A stretch of DNA of 38,426 bases from Clostridia bacterium (lineage in GTDB: Bacteria; Bacillota; Clostridia; UBA1212). The position numbers and the translations under genes were made by a program. The stretch lies in assembly GCA_017848335.1 (NCBI GenBank), contig JAGDAX010000044.1:1-38426 (forward strand). Reading direction: 5' to 3'. Shown one piece after another: positions 24,914-34,337 of the stretch (position 1 is the stretch's first letter; every line of letters begins with the position of its first letter). The notes beneath the pieces are model-generated. The model was not told where the DNA came from. It saw nothing but the letters and a program-made list of their open reading frames with translations, and ran no database searches.

Positions 24914-26065
24914 ATGGCTAAACAAAACAAACCCACCGACACCAAAAGCGGCGCAAGCTGCGACACACGTATATGCTCCGTAGGCGGCGAAGCCCTCATG
25001 GAGGGCATCATGATGCGCTGCCCCTCGGGATACGCACAGGTAGTAAGAACCCCCGAAGGCACGCTCAGCATCGAGACGAAGCGCCAGCCCCAGTTCGGCG
25101 CCGGCAACAAATTCCTCGAATTCCCCTTCGTCAGGGGCACCGTCCGCCTTGCCGATTCGCTGATCGTAGGCACCAAAGCGCTTTTCAACTCCGCGGAGAT
25201 CTCCGTCTCCGACAACGACCCCAACTACAAGCCCTCTAAATTCGACCTATGGATCGAAAAGCACCTCGGCGACAAGGCCATGGGCGTTATCATGACGATT
25301 TCCCTCATTCTTTCGCTGGTCCTCTCCGTCGGACTCTTCTTCGTGCTGCCGCAGCTTATCGTGACCGGCATCAACGCCATCCCCGGCGTCGACCTTCCCC
25401 AGATCGCAAACAGCGCCATCGAGGGCGTTGTCCGCATACTCATCTTCCTCGGCTACCTCGCGCTGATCTCCTCCATGAAGGACATCCGCCGCGTCTTTAT
25501 GTACCACGGCGCCGAGCACAAGACCATCCACTGCTACGAGCACTACGACGAGCTTACGGTGGATAACGTCCGCAGGTATTCGAAGCACCACCCCCGCTGC
25601 GGCACGGCTTTCCTTTTCGTGGTAATGGTCATCAGCATCCTGATACACGCCCTGATTCCGAATCTCGGCAACGTCTTCCTCAACGTTCTGATGCGCATCG
25701 CCACCCTGCCGATAATTGCGGGCATTGCATACGAATTCAACCGCTTCGCCGGAAAGCACGACAATAAAATCGTCAGAATTCTTCGCGCGCCGGGGCTTTT
25801 GATGCAGCGATTCACCACCAGAGAGCCGGACGACGGCATGATAGAGGTTGCTATTGTTGCGCTAAGCGAGGCGCTGAAGCTTGACGAGATGCCGGACTAT
25901 TCCGCCAAGGAACCTGCCGTGCCCGCCGCTTCGGATGACGAAGCCCCTGAAGGCGCCGCCGAGCCCGACAATGCCGCGGATGACACTTCCTGCGCGGACG
26001 CCACTGACGCCACTGACAACGCTGACAATGCCGACGAAAACGCGGAAACGACGGAGCGGGCATAA
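24914..26065 (+). CDS. DUF1385 membrane protein (YqhQ family)
   Basis: A 383-residue polytopic membrane protein. The family signature is clear: GGEALMEGIMMRCP near the start, PFVRGTVRLADSL, then membrane helices around 125-150 and 170-190, the histidine-rich cytosolic motif MYHGAEHKTIHCYEHYDELTVDNVRRYSKHHPRCG split by no insertion, and two more helices. After about residue 310 the tail is acidic and repetitive (Asp/Ala/Asn). The function of this family is unknown to me. In Clostridia it typically sits between rpmE and prmC; here it directly precedes prmC (39 bases), while rpmE lies 11 kb away. The ribosome site before ATG 24914 is weak. Confidence 0.88.
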   Translation: MAKQNKPTDTKSGASCDTRICSVGGEALMEGIMMRCPSGYAQVVRTPEGTLSIETKRQPQFGAGNKFLEFPFVRGTVRLADSLIVGTKALFNSAEISVSDNDPNYKPSKFDLWIEKHLGDKAMGVIMTISLILSLVLSVGLFFVLPQLIVTGINAIPGVDLPQIANSAIEGVVRILIFLGYLALISSMKDIRRVFMYHGAEHKTIHCYEHYDELTVDNVRRYSKHHPRCGTAFLFVVMVISILIHALIPNLGNVFLNVLMRIATLPIIAGIAYEFNRFAGKHDNKIVRILRAPGLLMQRFTTREPDDGMIEVAIVALSEALKLDEMPDYSAKEPAVPAASDDEAPEGAAEPDNAADDTSCADATDATDNADNADENAETTERA

Positions 26066-26104
26066 GCCCCGCCCGCGGATGAGGCATTGAAAGAGGCATC
26101 AAAA

Positions 26105-29100
26105 TTGAAATTATACGAATTAAAGCGTGCAATCAAAAAGGAGCTTGCCGGTTACGGCATCAGGGACGAGGATCAGACCGTCCTGTCCGGGCTCTTTGAG
26201 CACGCTTTTAATTTTTCCCTGAATTTCCTTCTGTCCGAGCCGCAGCACGAAATCGACGAAGATTCCGAGGGCTGCAGGATATTGGCGGAGGATATGGAAA
26301 AGCTCTCCCGCGGCATGCCCCTGCAGTACGTGACAGGCAAGGCCTGGTTCTGCGGACACCGCTTTTACGTAAACAGCGACGTTCTTATCCCGCGAATGGA
26401 AACCGAGCTTCTGGTGGCCCACGCAGCGGATTACGTGCAAAGGTTCATCGAGGTCAGCGGCCGCGCTCCGCGTATTCTCGATCTTTGCTCGGGAAGCGGC
26501 GCCATCGGCATTTCCTTAAAATACCTCTTTCCGGAGGCTGACGTCACCCTCTCCGACATTTCCCGCAAGGCCCTTCAAGTGTCCATGCAGAACGCCGCCG
26601 AAATACTCGGCGACAGCAGCAGTCTGAATTACGTCTGCGGAAGCTTCCTGAGCCCGTTTACCGACAATGAAACCGACGAGCTGACCGGCGAAGCACCCGG
26701 CAGTGGATCTCCCGGCGGTGAAGCTCTCCCCGGTCGCGGCAGGTTTGATATCATTCTCTCAAATCCGCCCTACGTCTCCACGGAAGCGATCAAGAAGCTG
26801 CCTGCGTCGGTACGCGATTACGAGCCGGGCATCGCCCTTGACGGAGGCCCCGGCGGCATTTTGCCTTATCGCGAGATCGCCCGCAGCCTCCGCAAGGTCC
26901 TCAGCGATATTTCCTTCGTCCTTTTCGAGATAGGCGAGACGCAGGGAAACGCCGTGGCGTCGATTCTTCGCGCGCAGGGGTTCTCAAACGCCAGAATTCT
27001 CAAGGATCTGGACAAAAAAGACAGGTTCGTTAAGGCCGTCTCGATTCCCGCCGACTTTTCGGAATCCGACCCGTCCTTTGCTCTCATCAGCGCGGCAATG
27101 CGCTCCCTCAGCGTCACCGAGCCCGTCCTTCCGGACGCACCTCAGAGCAGCGCTGCCGACGCAAAAAGCAGCGCGGACGCGGGGCGCTCTGAAAATGCAG
27201 GCGCCGGGGCCAACGCATATCCTGCGCCGCAAGGCACAAAGACTGCGCCGGCACAAGGCGCAAAGCCCGCGCCGCCGCAAAGCGAAAAACCTGCGCCGGC
27301 GCACATCGCAAAACCGGCGCCGCCACTAAACGCAAATACTGCGCCGGCACAAGTCACAAAGCCCGGCGCAGCCCCCGGCCTCACAGCCGCCTCCCCCGTC
27401 AGCCTGCTCAAGGGCATCGGCCCCAAGATCACAGCCTCGCTTGCAGCCTGCGGCGTAATCACCGTCAAGGACCTTCTCGGTTATTTCCCGCTGAGGTACG
27501 AGGACCGCACCAGGCTCTTCACGGTCACCGAATGCCGGCAGGAGCTGCTTTCGAAAGGCCTCACCCGCGGCAATTTCCTGCTGTCACTCAAGATCACGTC
27601 CGTCAAGGAAAAGCACACGCCGGGCCTTCCCGTCACGATCCTTCAGGGCTGCGACGTCACCGGCGACGCGGAAATCCTTTTCTTCAACAACAAATTCCTG
27701 CGGAAAATGATCTTCACCGGCAGGACATACCTCTTCTACGGCACGGTAAGGCTGAAGGAGGACCTTTACAAAACCGTCTCCCTGCTGCAGCCTAAATTCG
27801 TGCCCGAGAATGACCCCCTTAAGGTAAAAAGCTTCGTGACGGTAAATCCCGTTTACAGGCTCAGGGGCGACCTTAGGCAGCAGGATATAAAAAAGGCCGT
27901 GGCCAAAGCGCTTGCTCTGCCCGGCAATTGCTTCACAGACGAGCCCGACGTTCCTGCGGCTGTTCTCAATGAAAACGGCTTTCCCGGTATTATTGACGCG
28001 CTGAGGATGATCCACGCGCCTTCAACGCTGAAGGACGCCGAGACCGCCCTCAGGAGATTTTCCTTCGTCAATATGCTGAACGCGGTTCTTTGCATAAAGG
28101 CGCTCAAAAACCTCCGCAAATCCGACAGGCTCACGGGCATCAGCTTTCCCCTCTCCGATTTCGGGCCCCTTGACGGCAGGCTCGCCTTCAGGCTCACCGA
28201 AGGCCAGAAAAAGGTCATCAGGCAAGTCACGGACGACATGGCCGACTCCAGGCCCATGAACAGACTCATCGACGGCGACGTGGGCTCCGGCAAGACGATC
28301 ATCGCGCTTTACGCGATCTACAACGCCGTCAGGAACGGCTTCCAGGCCGCCTTTATGGTTCCCTCCACCGTGCTGGCAGAGCAGCACACGCGCAAGACCT
28401 CCGCGCTTTTCGAGGCTCTGGGCATTCGGACCGCCCTTCTTTACTCATCCACCACCGCCAGGGAGCGCCGGAGAATCGAGAAGCTCGTCTCAGAGGGCGA
28501 AATTGACCTTGTTATAGGCACGCACAGCCTCCTTAACGAGTCCGTTGTTTTCAGGAATCCCGGCCTGTTCGTAATCGACGAGCAGCACCGCTTCGGTGTG
28601 GCCCAGAGGGCGCTTCTCGCGTCGAAGCGCGGCAAGAACGGCGCCGTCCCGGACGTGCTTTCACTGAGTGCCACGCCCATTCCCCGCTCACTTGCTCTTA
28701 TCCTGTACGGAGACATGGACATTTCGATTCTGGACGAGAAGCCCGCAGGAAGGCAGCAGATCGAGACATACCTTTACACAAGCTCCGCCCTCCCCAGAAT
28801 CTACGAGCGCGTGAGGAACGCCGCCGGGAAAGGCTCCCAGATATATATGGTCTACTCGAAAATATCCGATAAGGACGAGGCCGCTTTTACAGGCGAAGGA
28901 GAAGCCGAAGACCCTGAATACGTCGGCAGCCTTCAGATGACCGGCAATGACGGTCTTCAGGACGACGGCGGCTTGCCCGGCTCCGGCTCCGATACGCGAA
29001 AAGGCGCCGTTGAAGCCTTCAGCGAGCTTTCCTCCACGGTATTTAAGGGCATCAGCACCGGCCTCATTCACGGCAAAATGAAGGACGCCGACAAGAAATC

Positions 29101-29572
29101 CGTCATGGACTCCTTCGCGGCCGGAGAGATCAAAATACTGTTTGCCACCACAGTTATCGAGGTGGGAATCGACGTGCCCGCCGCCAATATAATCATCATC
29201 AACAACGCCGAAAGGTTCGGCCTGTCAACGCTTCACCAGCTGCGCGGACGCGTAGGCAGAGGCAGCGCGAAATCCTTCTGCCTTATGGTCAGCGACAGCG
29301 ACACCGAAAGGCTGAAATTCCTCACCACCACCGACGACGGCTTCAAGATCGCCGAAAAGGACCTGGAGCTCCGCGGCCCCGGCGAATTCTTCGGCACCAG
29401 CCAGTCGGGCAGGTCGGATATTCTCGAGGGATCAGCCCTCCTCTCGCCTGGCACGGTGGAAAAGATCCGCAGCGTCGCAGACAACATATTCGAGGAGGCC
29501 CGCCAAGGCAACGCCGAGTACAAGGAATACTACGACAGGATAACCGCCGTCACCGGAGACCTCACGCTCTGA
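26105..29572 (+). CDS. Fusion: release-factor glutamine methyltransferase (PrmC) and RecG helicase
   Basis: One uninterrupted frame of 1155 residues. Residues 1-318 are PrmC: IPRMETELL, the SAM loop DLCSGSGAIG (126-135), and NPPY (220-223), the Gln-binding motif. PrmC methylates the GGQ glutamine of release factors. Residues about 350-430 are an Ala/Pro-rich linker with six 8-residue repeats. From about 433 to the end is RecG: helix-hairpin LLKGIGPKITASL, wedge domain, Walker A GDVGSGKT (724-731), DEQH (825-828) in the RecG signature DEQHRFG, and QLRGRVGRG. RecG remodels stalled forks. Both halves look complete; no internal start with a ribosome site was found before RecG. PrmC and RecG each carry small low-complexity inserts. 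TTG 26105 has AAGAGG eight bases upstream; TTG 26087 is an alternative. Confidence 0.9.
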   Translation: MKLYELKRAIKKELAGYGIRDEDQTVLSGLFEHAFNFSLNFLLSEPQHEIDEDSEGCRILAEDMEKLSRGMPLQYVTGKAWFCGHRFYVNSDVLIPRMETELLVAHAADYVQRFIEVSGRAPRILDLCSGSGAIGISLKYLFPEADVTLSDISRKALQVSMQNAAEILGDSSSLNYVCGSFLSPFTDNETDELTGEAPGSGSPGGEALPGRGRFDIILSNPPYVSTEAIKKLPASVRDYEPGIALDGGPGGILPYREIARSLRKVLSDISFVLFEIGETQGNAVASILRAQGFSNARILKDLDKKDRFVKAVSIPADFSESDPSFALISAAMRSLSVTEPVLPDAPQSSAADAKSSADAGRSENAGAGANAYPAPQGTKTAPAQGAKPAPPQSEKPAPAHIAKPAPPLNANTAPAQVTKPGAAPGLTAASPVSLLKGIGPKITASLAACGVITVKDLLGYFPLRYEDRTRLFTVTECRQELLSKGLTRGNFLLSLKITSVKEKHTPGLPVTILQGCDVTGDAEILFFNNKFLRKMIFTGRTYLFYGTVRLKEDLYKTVSLLQPKFVPENDPLKVKSFVTVNPVYRLRGDLRQQDIKKAVAKALALPGNCFTDEPDVPAAVLNENGFPGIIDALRMIHAPSTLKDAETALRRFSFVNMLNAVLCIKALKNLRKSDRLTGISFPLSDFGPLDGRLAFRLTEGQKKVIRQVTDDMADSRPMNRLIDGDVGSGKTIIALYAIYNAVRNGFQAAFMVPSTVLAEQHTRKTSALFEALGIRTALLYSSTTARERRRIEKLVSEGEIDLVIGTHSLLNESVVFRNPGLFVIDEQHRFGVAQRALLASKRGKNGAVPDVLSLSATPIPRSLALILYGDMDISILDEKPAGRQQIETYLYTSSALPRIYERVRNAAGKGSQIYMVYSKISDKDEAAFTGEGEAEDPEYVGSLQMTGNDGLQDDGGLPGSGSDTRKGAVEAFSELSSTVFKGISTGLIHGKMKDADKKSVMDSFAAGEIKILFATTVIEVGIDVPAANIIIINNAERFGLSTLHQLRGRVGRGSAKSFCLMVSDSDTERLKFLTTTDDGFKIAEKDLELRGPGEFFGTSQSGRSDILEGSALLSPGTVEKIRSVADNIFEEARQGNAEYKEYYDRITAVTGDLTL
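27233..27376 (+). repeat. Six in-frame 24-bp repeats in the PrmC-RecG linker
   Basis: Units of exactly 24 bases start at 27233, 27257, 27281, 27305, 27329 and 27353 and encode octapeptides such as GAKPAPPQ and IAKPAPPL. The core (AAA/G-CC-GCGCCG) is nearly constant. They form a flexible Pro/Ala linker between the two enzymes. Confidence 0.9.
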
Positions 29573-29650
29573 ACAGGCGCCGCCACCGGAGGCCTCACGC
29601 TCCGAACAAGACCGTCCGCTTCCCTTTGAATCAACCCTTTTAAATCAAGC

Positions 29651-30415: not shown

Positions 30416-31390
30416 TTATTTTTCTATCAGGCACCCCTCGGCAATGCTTACGGTGCCGTTGCAGTTGATCGACTTGCCGCCCACGTATGTGGTAATTTTG
30501 CCGCCGGTGACCGTAATACTGTATATGGCCGTAAGCGCATCGTCGTCTGCATTGATGGTGATCGTGCCGCCTTCAATGGAAATAAAGCCCTTTGAAATGT
30601 CGGCGTCCTCGTTCACCTTGATGCCGTCGTCGTCGGAATTGACCACCAGCGTGCCGGAATTCATCTGGAAGCTGTCCTTGCCCTTGATGGCGTTGTTCTT
30701 GGCAGTCACGGTGATGTTGCCGCTCACGATCTTGAGGTCGTTCTTGGTGGCGATGCCGTTGTTGTAATTGCCGGTCACCACCAGCGTCCCGTAGCCGTTA
30801 ATGGTAAGGTCGTCCTTCGAGAAGAGGCATCCCGTGGGCTCGTCCTTCTCGTTGAGGTTTGTGTACGTGCTGCCGTCCGTCAGCGTATTGACGGTGCCTG
30901 AGGCCAGAGTGATCCCGACCTTGTCGGCGGAGGTGACGTAGATGGCGGCCTGGGACTGATTGGTGATATTCACCCCGTTAAGGATAAGGCGCACCTTCTC
31001 GGTTTTTTCCACCGTCACAATGATCTGGCCGTTGGACAGCGTGCCGCTCACAATGTACTCGCCGGGCTTGTTAACGGTAATGACGTCGCCGCTGACCGTC
31101 GCGCCCTCGCCTGTCACGGCAGAAGCGCCGTCGCTGAGCTGGATCTTTACGCATTTGTCAGGATCGTAAGCGAGAGTCGTATCGAAGCCCGAGAATTTAT
31201 CGGAGGCCTCCACCGGAGCCAGCGTCCGCGGATCCACGTTCAGTCCGGGATCGTCAATCGGAGCGTCCGTCGAAGCCGGTGGCTGCGTCGTGCCGGGACC
31301 GTCGACCCCGGTAACGCAAGCCGCAGCGGCGATACCAAATACGAGCGCCATGCCGGCCGCAATTATTGTCTTGAATAATCTGTTTTTCAT
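30416..31390 (-). CDS. Lipoprotein with Cthe_2159-type beta-helix carbohydrate-binding domain
   Basis: A 324-residue predicted lipoprotein. A basic start and hydrophobic helix (MKNRLFKTIIAAGMALVFG) lead to AAAC with Cys25 as the likely lipid site, then a Thr/Pro/Asp-rich spacer. From about 65 on, the sequence is a right-handed beta-helix of the Cthe_2159/PF14262 type: repeats such as LILNGVNITNQSQAAIYV, NNAIKGKDSFQMNSGTLV and DDDALTAIYSITVTGG. Members are described as binding acidic polysaccharides such as polygalacturonate and having calcium sites; here binding is inferred. ATG 31390 is favoured over the frame start 31414 because a signal peptide then begins properly and AAAGG precedes. It is a single gene, 98 bases after metK. 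Confidence 0.8.
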   Translation of the reverse strand: MKNRLFKTIIAAGMALVFGIAAAACVTGVDGPGTTQPPASTDAPIDDPGLNVDPRTLAPVEASDKFSGFDTTLAYDPDKCVKIQLSDGASAVTGEGATVSGDVITVNKPGEYIVSGTLSNGQIIVTVEKTEKVRLILNGVNITNQSQAAIYVTSADKVGITLASGTVNTLTDGSTYTNLNEKDEPTGCLFSKDDLTINGYGTLVVTGNYNNGIATKNDLKIVSGNITVTAKNNAIKGKDSFQMNSGTLVVNSDDDGIKVNEDADISKGFISIEGGTITINADDDALTAIYSITVTGGKITTYVGGKSINCNGTVSIAEGCLIEK

Positions 31391-31488
31391 AAAATAAACT
31401 GCCTTTCGGTGCAAAACAACTGACAGATTGCTGTCGTCCGGGAAATCCTAACACAGAATTGTTGAAAAATCCCAAAATCAGATCAATT

Positions 31489-32631
31489 TCAGATGTACGT
31501 CTTTAGAATATTTACTTTATCGAGCTTTTCCCAGGGGAGATTGCAGTCCGTCTTGCCGAAATGTCCGTAGCAGGTGGACAGCGCGTAAATCGGTCTCCTG
31601 AGGTCAAGGTAACTGATGATGGCCTTGGGGGACAGATCGAAATTGTCCAGCACGGCCTGTTCAATGCGAGACACCGGCACGGCCTCCGTGCCGAAGGTCT
31701 CAATGCTTATTGACACGGGATGCGCCACACCGATTGCATATGCGACCTGAAGCTCGGCTTTTTCGGCAAGTCCTGCCGCAACGATATTCTTGGCGATATA
31801 TCTGGCCATATAGGCGCCGCTTCTGTCGACCTTGGTGGGATCCTTGCCGGAAAACGCACCGCCGCCGTGTCTGCCCATGCCGCCGTAGGTGTCGACTATT
31901 ATCTTGCGGCCCGTAAGTCCGGAATCTCCGTAGGGCCCGCCGATAACAAACCTTCCCGTAGGGTTGATGTAAAACGCGGTATCGCTGCCGATAAGCTTCT
32001 CCGGAATAACCGCCCTTATCACGTGCTCCTCAATGTCTCTGCGAAGCTCCGCGGTGGAGATATCCTCCGAATGCTGCGAGGACACGACAATGGCCGATAT
32101 CCCGCAGGGCCGCCCGTTTTCGTCATATTTGACGCTGACCTGGCTCTTTCCGTCGGGCCTCAGATACTTGAGAATGCCCTGCTTGCGCACGTACGTAAGC
32201 CTCTTTGAGAGCCTGTGGGCGTATGCAATAGGCGCGGGCATATATTCGTCATTGTCGGTGACCTCGTTGGAGGCATAGCCGAAAACCATGCCCTGATCCC
32301 CTGCTCCGTCCGCGTCCACACCCATGGCAATGTCCGGCGACTGCTGGTGGAGGCAGTTGTTCACGCAGCAGGTGCTGCCGTCGAAGCCCAGCTCCGAGCT
32401 GTTGTAGCCGATACCGAGAATCGTCCTGCGCGCAATATCCGCGTAGTCCACAACGGCAGTGGTGGTGATCTCGCCCATGATCTGGACAAGACCCGTCGCC
32501 GCGGTGACTTCGCAGGCAACTCTGGACATCGGGTCGCCGGCAATAACGGCGTCCAGGATATTATCGGCAATACTGTCGCAGATCTTATCGGGATGTCCCT
32601 CTGTTACAGATTCGGATGTAAATATTTTCAT
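31489..32631 (-). CDS. metK: S-adenosylmethionine synthetase
   Basis: Makes SAM from ATP and methionine, in the cytosol. The 380 residues match the family. Seen: [10 protein letters not shown] (His13, Asp15), [15 protein letters not shown] (mid signature), [24 protein letters not shown], and the P-loop-like [30 protein letters not shown] 32631 has GGAG about eight bases upstream; the 42 codons further upstream are repeat-derived. I see no SAM riboswitch in its 161-base gap from clpX, which contains a 23-bp repeat array instead. It may be co-transcribed with clpX. Confidence 0.97.
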
Positions 32632-32714
32632 AAATAAAGCTCCGTTAATGAGATGAAAAGTTTGTACGTGAATATTTGCAAATAATGCTCGTGAATGAGA
32701 GGCCGGGATCATTC

Positions 32715-32814
32715 CGTCTCCGGTCAGGAAGCGTCCGCGTCTCCGGTCAGGAAGCATCCGCGTCTCCGGTCGTAAAGCATCTGCGTCTCCGGTCAGGAAG
32801 CGTCCGCGTCTCCC
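32715..32814. repeat. 23-bp tandem repeats overlapping the 3' end of clpX
   Basis: Four units of CGTCTCCGGTCAGGAAGCGTCCG with few changes start at 32715, 32738, 32761 and 32784, with a partial fifth. The clpX stop codon (32793-32795) and its last codons (GDADAS) lie inside unit four, so the array extended from or into the gene end. The core CCGGTCAGGAAG resembles the array at 34338-34463. Confidence 0.9.
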
Positions 32815-34163
32815 ACAGGCTCCGCCCTGCCGTCCTCAAAAACGAGCCGCGGCGGGCTGCCCTTCAATATCGTATCCCTCGTGACAATGCATTCCCTGAC
32901 GTTGCCCGCCGAAGGAACGCTGAACATAACGTCCTGCATTGCTTTGTCAACGATTGCCCGAAGGCCTCTGGCGCCGGTCTTCCTCTGAAGCGCCAGCTCC
33001 GCGATCGCGCCGATGGCTTCGTCGTCGAAGGTCAGCTTCACGCCGTCCAGCGACAGCAGCTTCATATATTGCTTGACAAGAGCATTCCTCGGCTTGGTGA
33101 GTATGCTCACCAGCGCGTCGTAATTCAGCGCCTCAAGCGTAACGATCGAAGGCACGCGGCCTATGAACTCCGGAATAAGGCCGAAGCGCAGCAGATCCTG
33201 CGGTTCAACCTTGGGGAGTATCTTATTGACGTCCGTGTCCGCCTGCGTTATGAGCTTGCTGCCGAAGCCCAGCGTCGCCTTGCCGAGTCTGTTCTCGATG
33301 ATCTTGGGAAGCCCGTCGAAGGCCCCTGAGCAGATGAACAGGATGTTGGTGGTGTCGATGGGAATAAACTGCTGCTGAGGATGCTTGCGGCCGCCCCCTG
33401 GAGGCACCTGAGCCACGGTGCCCTCAAGGATTTTGAGAAGCGCCTGCTGCACGCCTTCGCCGCTGACGTCACGCGTAATGGAGACGTTCTCGGTCTTGCG
33501 GGCGATCTTGTCGATCTCGTCCACAAAAATGATGCCCCTCTCGGCCAGCCCCACGTCGCCGTCAGCCGCCTGAATGAGGCGCAGCAATATATTCTCGACG
33601 TCCTCGCCCACGTATCCGGCCTCCGTAAGAGCCGTGGCGTCCGCAATGGCAAATGGCACGTTGAGGATCTTGGCCAGCGTCTGCGCAAGGTACGTCTTGC
33701 CGACGCCGGTGGGCCCGATAAGAAGCACGTTGCTCTTGGTGAGCTCCGTGTCCATGAAGTCATGCTCGCGGGCAGACGTATCGCCCTCCGACGAGAAGTC
33801 CACGCGGAATCCGTCTTCGCTGCGTTTTTTATTGTCGAGAATGCGCTTGTAATGGTTATACACGGCCACGCAGAGGGCCTTTTTGGCACTGTCCTGCCCT
33901 ATGACATACTCATCAAGCTTTTCCTTGAGCTCCGCGGGCTTGGGCAACACGAAATCCTCCGCCTCCAGGTCGTATGAGCCGGAGGACCCCGAAGTGCTCT
34001 TGGGGCGCTTGCCTGCCTGGGTCTCCTTGTTGATAAGCTCCATACAGGTTCTGACACAGTCCTCGCAAATATTGATGCCGGGGCCCTGAATCACCGGAAT
34101 GGATCCGTCAAGATTCCTGCCGCAGAACGAACATTTGTATTTGTATTTATCTTTTTCAGCCAT
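32793..34163 (-). CDS. clpX: ATP-dependent Clp protease ATP-binding subunit ClpX
   Basis: AAA+ unfoldase that feeds substrates to ClpP. The 456 residues show the N-terminal zinc domain (Cys11, Cys14, Cys33, Cys36), Walker A GPTGVGKT (150-157), pore loop GYVG (183-186), Walker B FVDEID (213-218), and the sensor regions with GRVPSI and [15 protein letters not shown] 20-30 residue Ser/Gly spacer after the zinc domain and a C-terminal tail ([15 protein letters not shown]) are species-specific; the tail comes from a 23-bp repeat. ATG 34163 has AAGGA about nine bases upstream. Gaps with tandem repeats separate it from clpP (320 bases) and metK. Confidence 0.97.
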
Positions 34164-34337
34164 AAAACAATTCCTTCGGTGAGAAATCACTTATTAAGCG
34201 CGTATCCTCCGCCAAGGCGCGGCCCGGTGGCCTGACGGCCCGGCGGTCTTCAAATTACAGGTTGATAAAACTGCGTGACGTTTGGTTAAATCAGATCAAA
34301 AAGGTTTGCCGGTCTGCACGTCCGGCGCCGCACCGCG

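Follow-up and report, generated by a model that had tools for sequence, protein, structure and literature searches.

The window analysed here, 38,426 nucleotides of a Clostridia bacterium contig (JAGDAX010000044.1), carries one stop-free plus-strand frame of 1155 codons that spans both PrmC and RecG, in agreement with a sequence-only reading of the same DNA, and this gene is a true single-gene PrmC–RecG fusion. Both are textbook enzymes: PrmC methylates the glutamine of the GGQ motif in the release factors RF1 and RF2, and RecG is a known processor of R-loops and replication forks. The features of the locus are as follows.

24914–26065, plus strand: DUF1385 gene upstream of the fusion; the DUF1385–prmC order occurs at most checkable loci of the order
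26090–26096, plus strand: likely ribosome-binding site AAAGAGG ahead of the TTG start (SD energy −5.8)
26105–29572, plus strand: coding sequence of the prmC–recG fusion, running from a TTG start to a TGA stop (1155 aa)
26105–27034, plus strand: PrmC (HemK) release-factor glutamine methyltransferase module, residues 1–310, assigned from profile matches and the motifs DLCSGSGAIG and NPPY
26669–26725, plus strand: low-complexity insert within PrmC, ahead of NPPY; window species only, predicted disordered
27032–27412, plus strand: inter-module linker, residues 310–436, rich in Ala, Pro and Ser; residues 337–422 predicted disordered (pLDDT about 25–33)
27230–27363, plus strand: degenerate 24-bp tandem repeat within the linker (5.6 copies, 73% match); window species only
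27389–29569, plus strand: RecG helicase, comprising the wedge, both helicase domains and the C-terminal domain; assigned from profile matches, structural relatives and motifs
28883–28993, plus strand: low-complexity insert within helicase domain 2 of RecG; window species only, predicted disordered

The TTG at 26105 was taken as the start because the relatives begin at the same place, with GTG or ATG codons that are likewise preceded by ribosome sites.

The N-terminal half is a complete PrmC, as had been claimed from its SAM loop (DLCSGSGAIG) and NPPY motif. TIGR03534 (PrmC) scored 217.7 bits against a curated cut-off of 199.1, aligning model positions 5–252 of 253 to residues 30–309, and hmmscan placed Pfam PrmC_N and MTS (small methyltransferase domain) within residues 8–188, PrmC as a whole extending over residues ~8–310. 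The N-terminal helical domain, the glycine-rich SAM loop and NPPY are all present, and the solved relatives of this half are the HemK structures 1nv8 and 1sg9. With PrmC_N, the methyltransferase domain, the SAM loop and NPPY, the window protein matches ordinary PrmC/HemK (TIGR03534; PDB 1nv8, 2b3t); it departs from it in its C-terminal extension, a linker followed by an entire RecG, and, in the window species, in the small insert ahead of NPPY. PrmC is already known to occur fused to another enzyme: PrmC–TrmB, a bifunctional PrmC/tRNA m7G46 methyltransferase with its own NCBIfam model (NF002421, 524 positions), is likewise a PrmC extended C-terminally by a second enzyme, which there is a tRNA methyltransferase and here is RecG. 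NF002421 matched only the PrmC part of the window protein (90 bits), and an assignment as PrmC–TrmB was rejected because the C-terminal part is RecG and contains no TrmB methyltransferase.

For the C-terminal half, hmmscan placed RecG_wedge (PF17191), DEAD (PF00270), Helicase_C (PF00271) and RecG_dom3_C (PF19833) across residues 433–1136. The full-length RecG models scored below their equivalog cut-offs, NF008165 with 647 bits over residues 429–1139 (cut-off 711) and TIGR00643 with 571.8 bits (cut-off 659.4), but RecG was by far the best family for this half. We read the shortfall as a probable effect of the insert and of a fast-evolving lineage; since domain content and motifs are complete, the name RecG was kept. 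The closest solved chain is the RecG structure 1gm5 (E 1.6e-124). Walker A, DEQH, motifs IV–VI and the TRG region are intact, and the earlier claim of a complete helicase held up, with all domains matched and GDVGSGKT, DEQHRFG and QLRGRVGRG in place. Relative to free-standing RecG (TIGR00643, NF008165; PDB 1gm5), the module shares the wedge, both helicase domains, the C-terminal domain and every helicase motif, whereas it has no start of its own, lies tethered behind PrmC, and carries the species-specific insert in helicase domain 2 along with the somewhat lower scores.

Facing the fusion, at 30416–34190, lie genes for a Cthe_2159-like protein, the S-adenosylmethionine synthetase MetK and a ClpX-like protein, an order kept next to the fused gene in two relatives (G002 and G004) and partly in a third (G003). 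That MetK, the maker of the PrmC cofactor, sits beside the fusion is probably coincidence.

Distribution of the fused frame

The family sample comprised nine genomes: six of one genus (g1, including the window genome G000), one of a second genus (G006), and two of a third (g3; G007 and G008). With all nine searched, a single frame over both halves was present in 6/6 g1 genomes and in G006, and absent from G007 and G008. The related genomes therefore bear out the PrmC–RecG architecture, with seven fused genomes in two genera and fused proteins of 994–1155 aa. Five g1 members are known by name, namely yak-rumen RGIG10266, goat-rumen RGIG3519, Mageeibacillus sp. UBA1243 and UBA1212, and RUG12790, all found by a search with an alignment of the PrmC N-terminus. 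The catalytic motifs of both modules, including the SAM loop and NPPY of PrmC, are preserved in 7/7 fused proteins. Judged from sequence, either half resembles a normal functional enzyme on a flexible tether.

Across the 31 genomes of the order, the fusion occurs only in these seven. At the class level, 391 genomes were searched and 351 matched; among the roughly 150 best matches listed, only G000 and G003 were fused, and the others were ordinary RecG frames of 660–750 aa, except one. This exception, a 919-aa RecG frame in G009, was rejected as a further fusion, as its N-terminal extension is not PrmC and its PrmC lies on another contig. PrmC was found in 144/149 genomes of the phylum, within which the sampling stayed, and only the window's lay in a frame over 430 aa. 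As far as sampled, the fusion appears confined to one small set of uncultured Clostridia from the gut, chiefly the rumen.

A single PrmC was found per genome, with no second prmC in any of the nine family genomes, and no second recG was found in the window's own genome, where the other hits of the RecG query look like Mfd and other helicases, named from length and match region only. Completeness is 79% for the window genome, a draft assembly, and 97% for G003 and G004. The fused gene thus appears to be the sole source of PrmC and of RecG in the cell. The genes for RF1 and RF2, the putative PrmC substrates with their encoded GGQ, are present in 9/9 family genomes. The RF1 gene of the window genome (prfA; L074, G000:C86:3122-4180, minus strand) has an in-frame TGA shortly after GGQ; this site is Lys or Arg in 8/8 family relatives, and the conserved frame continues beyond it. 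The TGA may reflect an error in the metagenome sequence or a nonsense mutation that arose recently, or the UGA may be read through.

An incomplete draft, in which the prfA TGA might itself be an error, could raise the suspicion that the fused frame is an artefact of assembly or sequencing, or a chance read-through between adjacent genes. Against this, one frame is kept in seven genomes, several of them from independently assembled metagenomes (yak rumen, goat rumen), and at matched base composition the joint chance of stop-free sequence across all seven linkers (17–127 codons) is about 10^-8.9, a figure that treats the genomes as independent and overstates the evidence, the genomes being related. 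We regard the probability of an artefact as negligible.

The linker and internal starts

From the PrmC tail to the RecG start, the linkers of the seven fused proteins measure 17, 34, 93, 94, 107, 122 and 127 residues, the two shortest belonging to G004 and G006, respectively. They are largely unalignable, yet every one is in frame. In the window protein, the six exact 24-bp units described earlier proved degenerate: Tandem Repeats Finder returned 5.6 copies at 73% match, with 12–19 of 24 bases shared between pairs of units. The companion suggestion, that repeat expansion after loss of a stop codon may have made the fusion, was not borne out, given that the repeats are inexact and confined to the species and that the fused relatives have unrelated linkers. 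The Pro/Ala repeat array is a later expansion specific to the window species, which also has the low-complexity inserts inside PrmC and RecG. Tandem repeats are very frequent throughout the window (46 entries in 38 kb), both in intergenic sequence and in low-complexity protein parts such as the DUF1385 tail, which suggests a habit of repeat-driven insertion in this species. A second copy of the final ~33 bp of the fused gene follows just after the stop (29545–29608), with CGA in place of the TGA stop.

AlphaFold2, run on a 36-row alignment, predicted the PrmC and RecG modules confidently and the intervening stretch as disordered. The pTM of the whole protein was only 0.58, so the model points to no fixed arrangement of the two halves. 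The earlier statement that RecG lacks an internal start with a ribosome site agrees with a survey of in-frame ATG, GTG and TTG codons between PrmC and RecG in the window gene, none of which has a plausible ribosome site (only an ATG at residue 332, with an SD energy of +1.2); nor was any start within the frame that is backed by a ribosome site conserved among the fused relatives.

Origin of the fusion

In the order's other families, whenever both genes were found they occupied separate contigs, with a DUF1385 gene usually preceding prmC. In the present family, recG stands directly behind prmC. The unfused genus g3 has the same gene order as the fusion and close relatives of both halves; it differs in encoding separate proteins, recG starting in the +1 frame at an ATG that lies 17 nt before prmC ends (G007 and G008).

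Because trees of PrmC and RecG by themselves did not discriminate between one fusion and two, a tree of RpoB+RpoC was used. It grouped G006 with g1 at 100/100, with G007 and G008 outside, and an AU test rejected a grouping of G006 with g3; RpoC alone gave the same result. Since this tree unites the fused genera and leaves the unfused one outside, a single frame-joining event in the ancestor of g1 and G006 is the simplest account of the sequences. Separate fusions in g1 and in G006, or a single fusion later undone by fission in g3, would fit the PrmC and RecG trees, in which the fused G006 falls with the unfused G007 and G008 (99/98 in the concatenation). The same gene trees do not reject a single origin (AU p 0.34–0.43; concatenation 0.42), and with the full support for G006 plus g1 in RpoB+RpoC we hold a repeated or reversed event to be unlikely. 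Genus g1 sits on a long branch in the PrmC, RecG and RpoB/RpoC trees alike, apparently a mark of lineage-wide fast evolution and not of the fusion.

Under a single origin, DUF1385–prmC would be the old neighbourhood, with prmC and recG unlinked as elsewhere in the order. In the ancestor of the family, recG would have come to sit directly behind prmC, and the two would then have become an overlapping pair, an arrangement that the sister genus retains. The frames may later have been joined a single time, by a small indel in the common ancestor of g1 and G006; because the unfused sister genus overlaps prmC and recG in different frames, such an indel in an overlapping pair is the simpler route. 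The linker would later have lengthened freely, in the window species by way of the degenerate 24-bp repeat.

Function and meaning of the fusion

The gene probably encodes a bifunctional protein that carries an N-terminal PrmC, methylating the GGQ glutamine of RF1 and RF2, and, behind a flexible linker, a complete RecG acting on stalled forks and R-loops, the two modules being independent and co-produced. Most likely it is a two-enzyme protein whose tethered halves act independently and share their expression: PrmC and RecG would each work on a flexible tether, the protein would stay uncleaved, and the effect of the fusion would be their fixed co-production. The retention of the fusion in both genera may indicate that being tethered is advantageous in itself, a point that the notion of independent modules underplays.

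Retention also bears on a more ambitious proposal, in which the fused protein is a dedicated device coupling release-factor methylation and termination to RecG at R-loops or stalled forks, with tethering selected for function. The PrmC tether would sense or serve the state of translation termination at replication–transcription conflicts, for example by placing RecG at R-loops from stalled, uncoupled ribosomes, or through allostery between methyltransferase and helicase. Such coupling would suit the established role of RecG in fork and R-loop processing and the history of linkers that all changed in frame, with no loss in either genus. We nevertheless judge it quite improbable: linker length (17–127 aa) and sequence are unconserved, no confident interdomain arrangement is predicted, the fusion is limited to one small lineage among those sampled, and the literature searched yielded no link between PrmC and RecG. 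A freely varying linker argues against allosteric coupling, though not against simple co-localisation. It is similarly doubtful that the gene is fused while the working proteins are separate, RecG being released by cleavage of the disordered linker or made in addition from an internal start. Long disordered linkers are protease-sensitive in general, so this one could be cut, and some relatives have an in-frame GTG near RecG (residue 364 in G005, SD energy −5.6), whereas the window gene offers no internal start backed by a ribosome site, none with such a site is conserved among the relatives, and the linker of G004 measures only 17 aa. The tethered, co-produced pair of independent enzymes is accordingly the reading we retain.

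No description of a PrmC–RecG fusion was found in the open literature searched, a body of 5.4 million papers that leaves most subscription journals and database architecture listings outside; the earlier remark that no described enzyme of this kind was known agrees with this search of open papers, and the fusion seems undescribed. It offers a clean case in which two near-universal enzymes of unrelated pathways have been joined, with the likely pre-fusion state preserved as overlapping genes in a sister genus and post-fusion linkers of very different lengths. For annotation, pipelines may name such genes for one half only. The fusion is also a test case for 'Rosetta stone' inference, by which fused proteins share a pathway: it would be a counter-example or, if coupling is true, would tie translation termination to fork repair.
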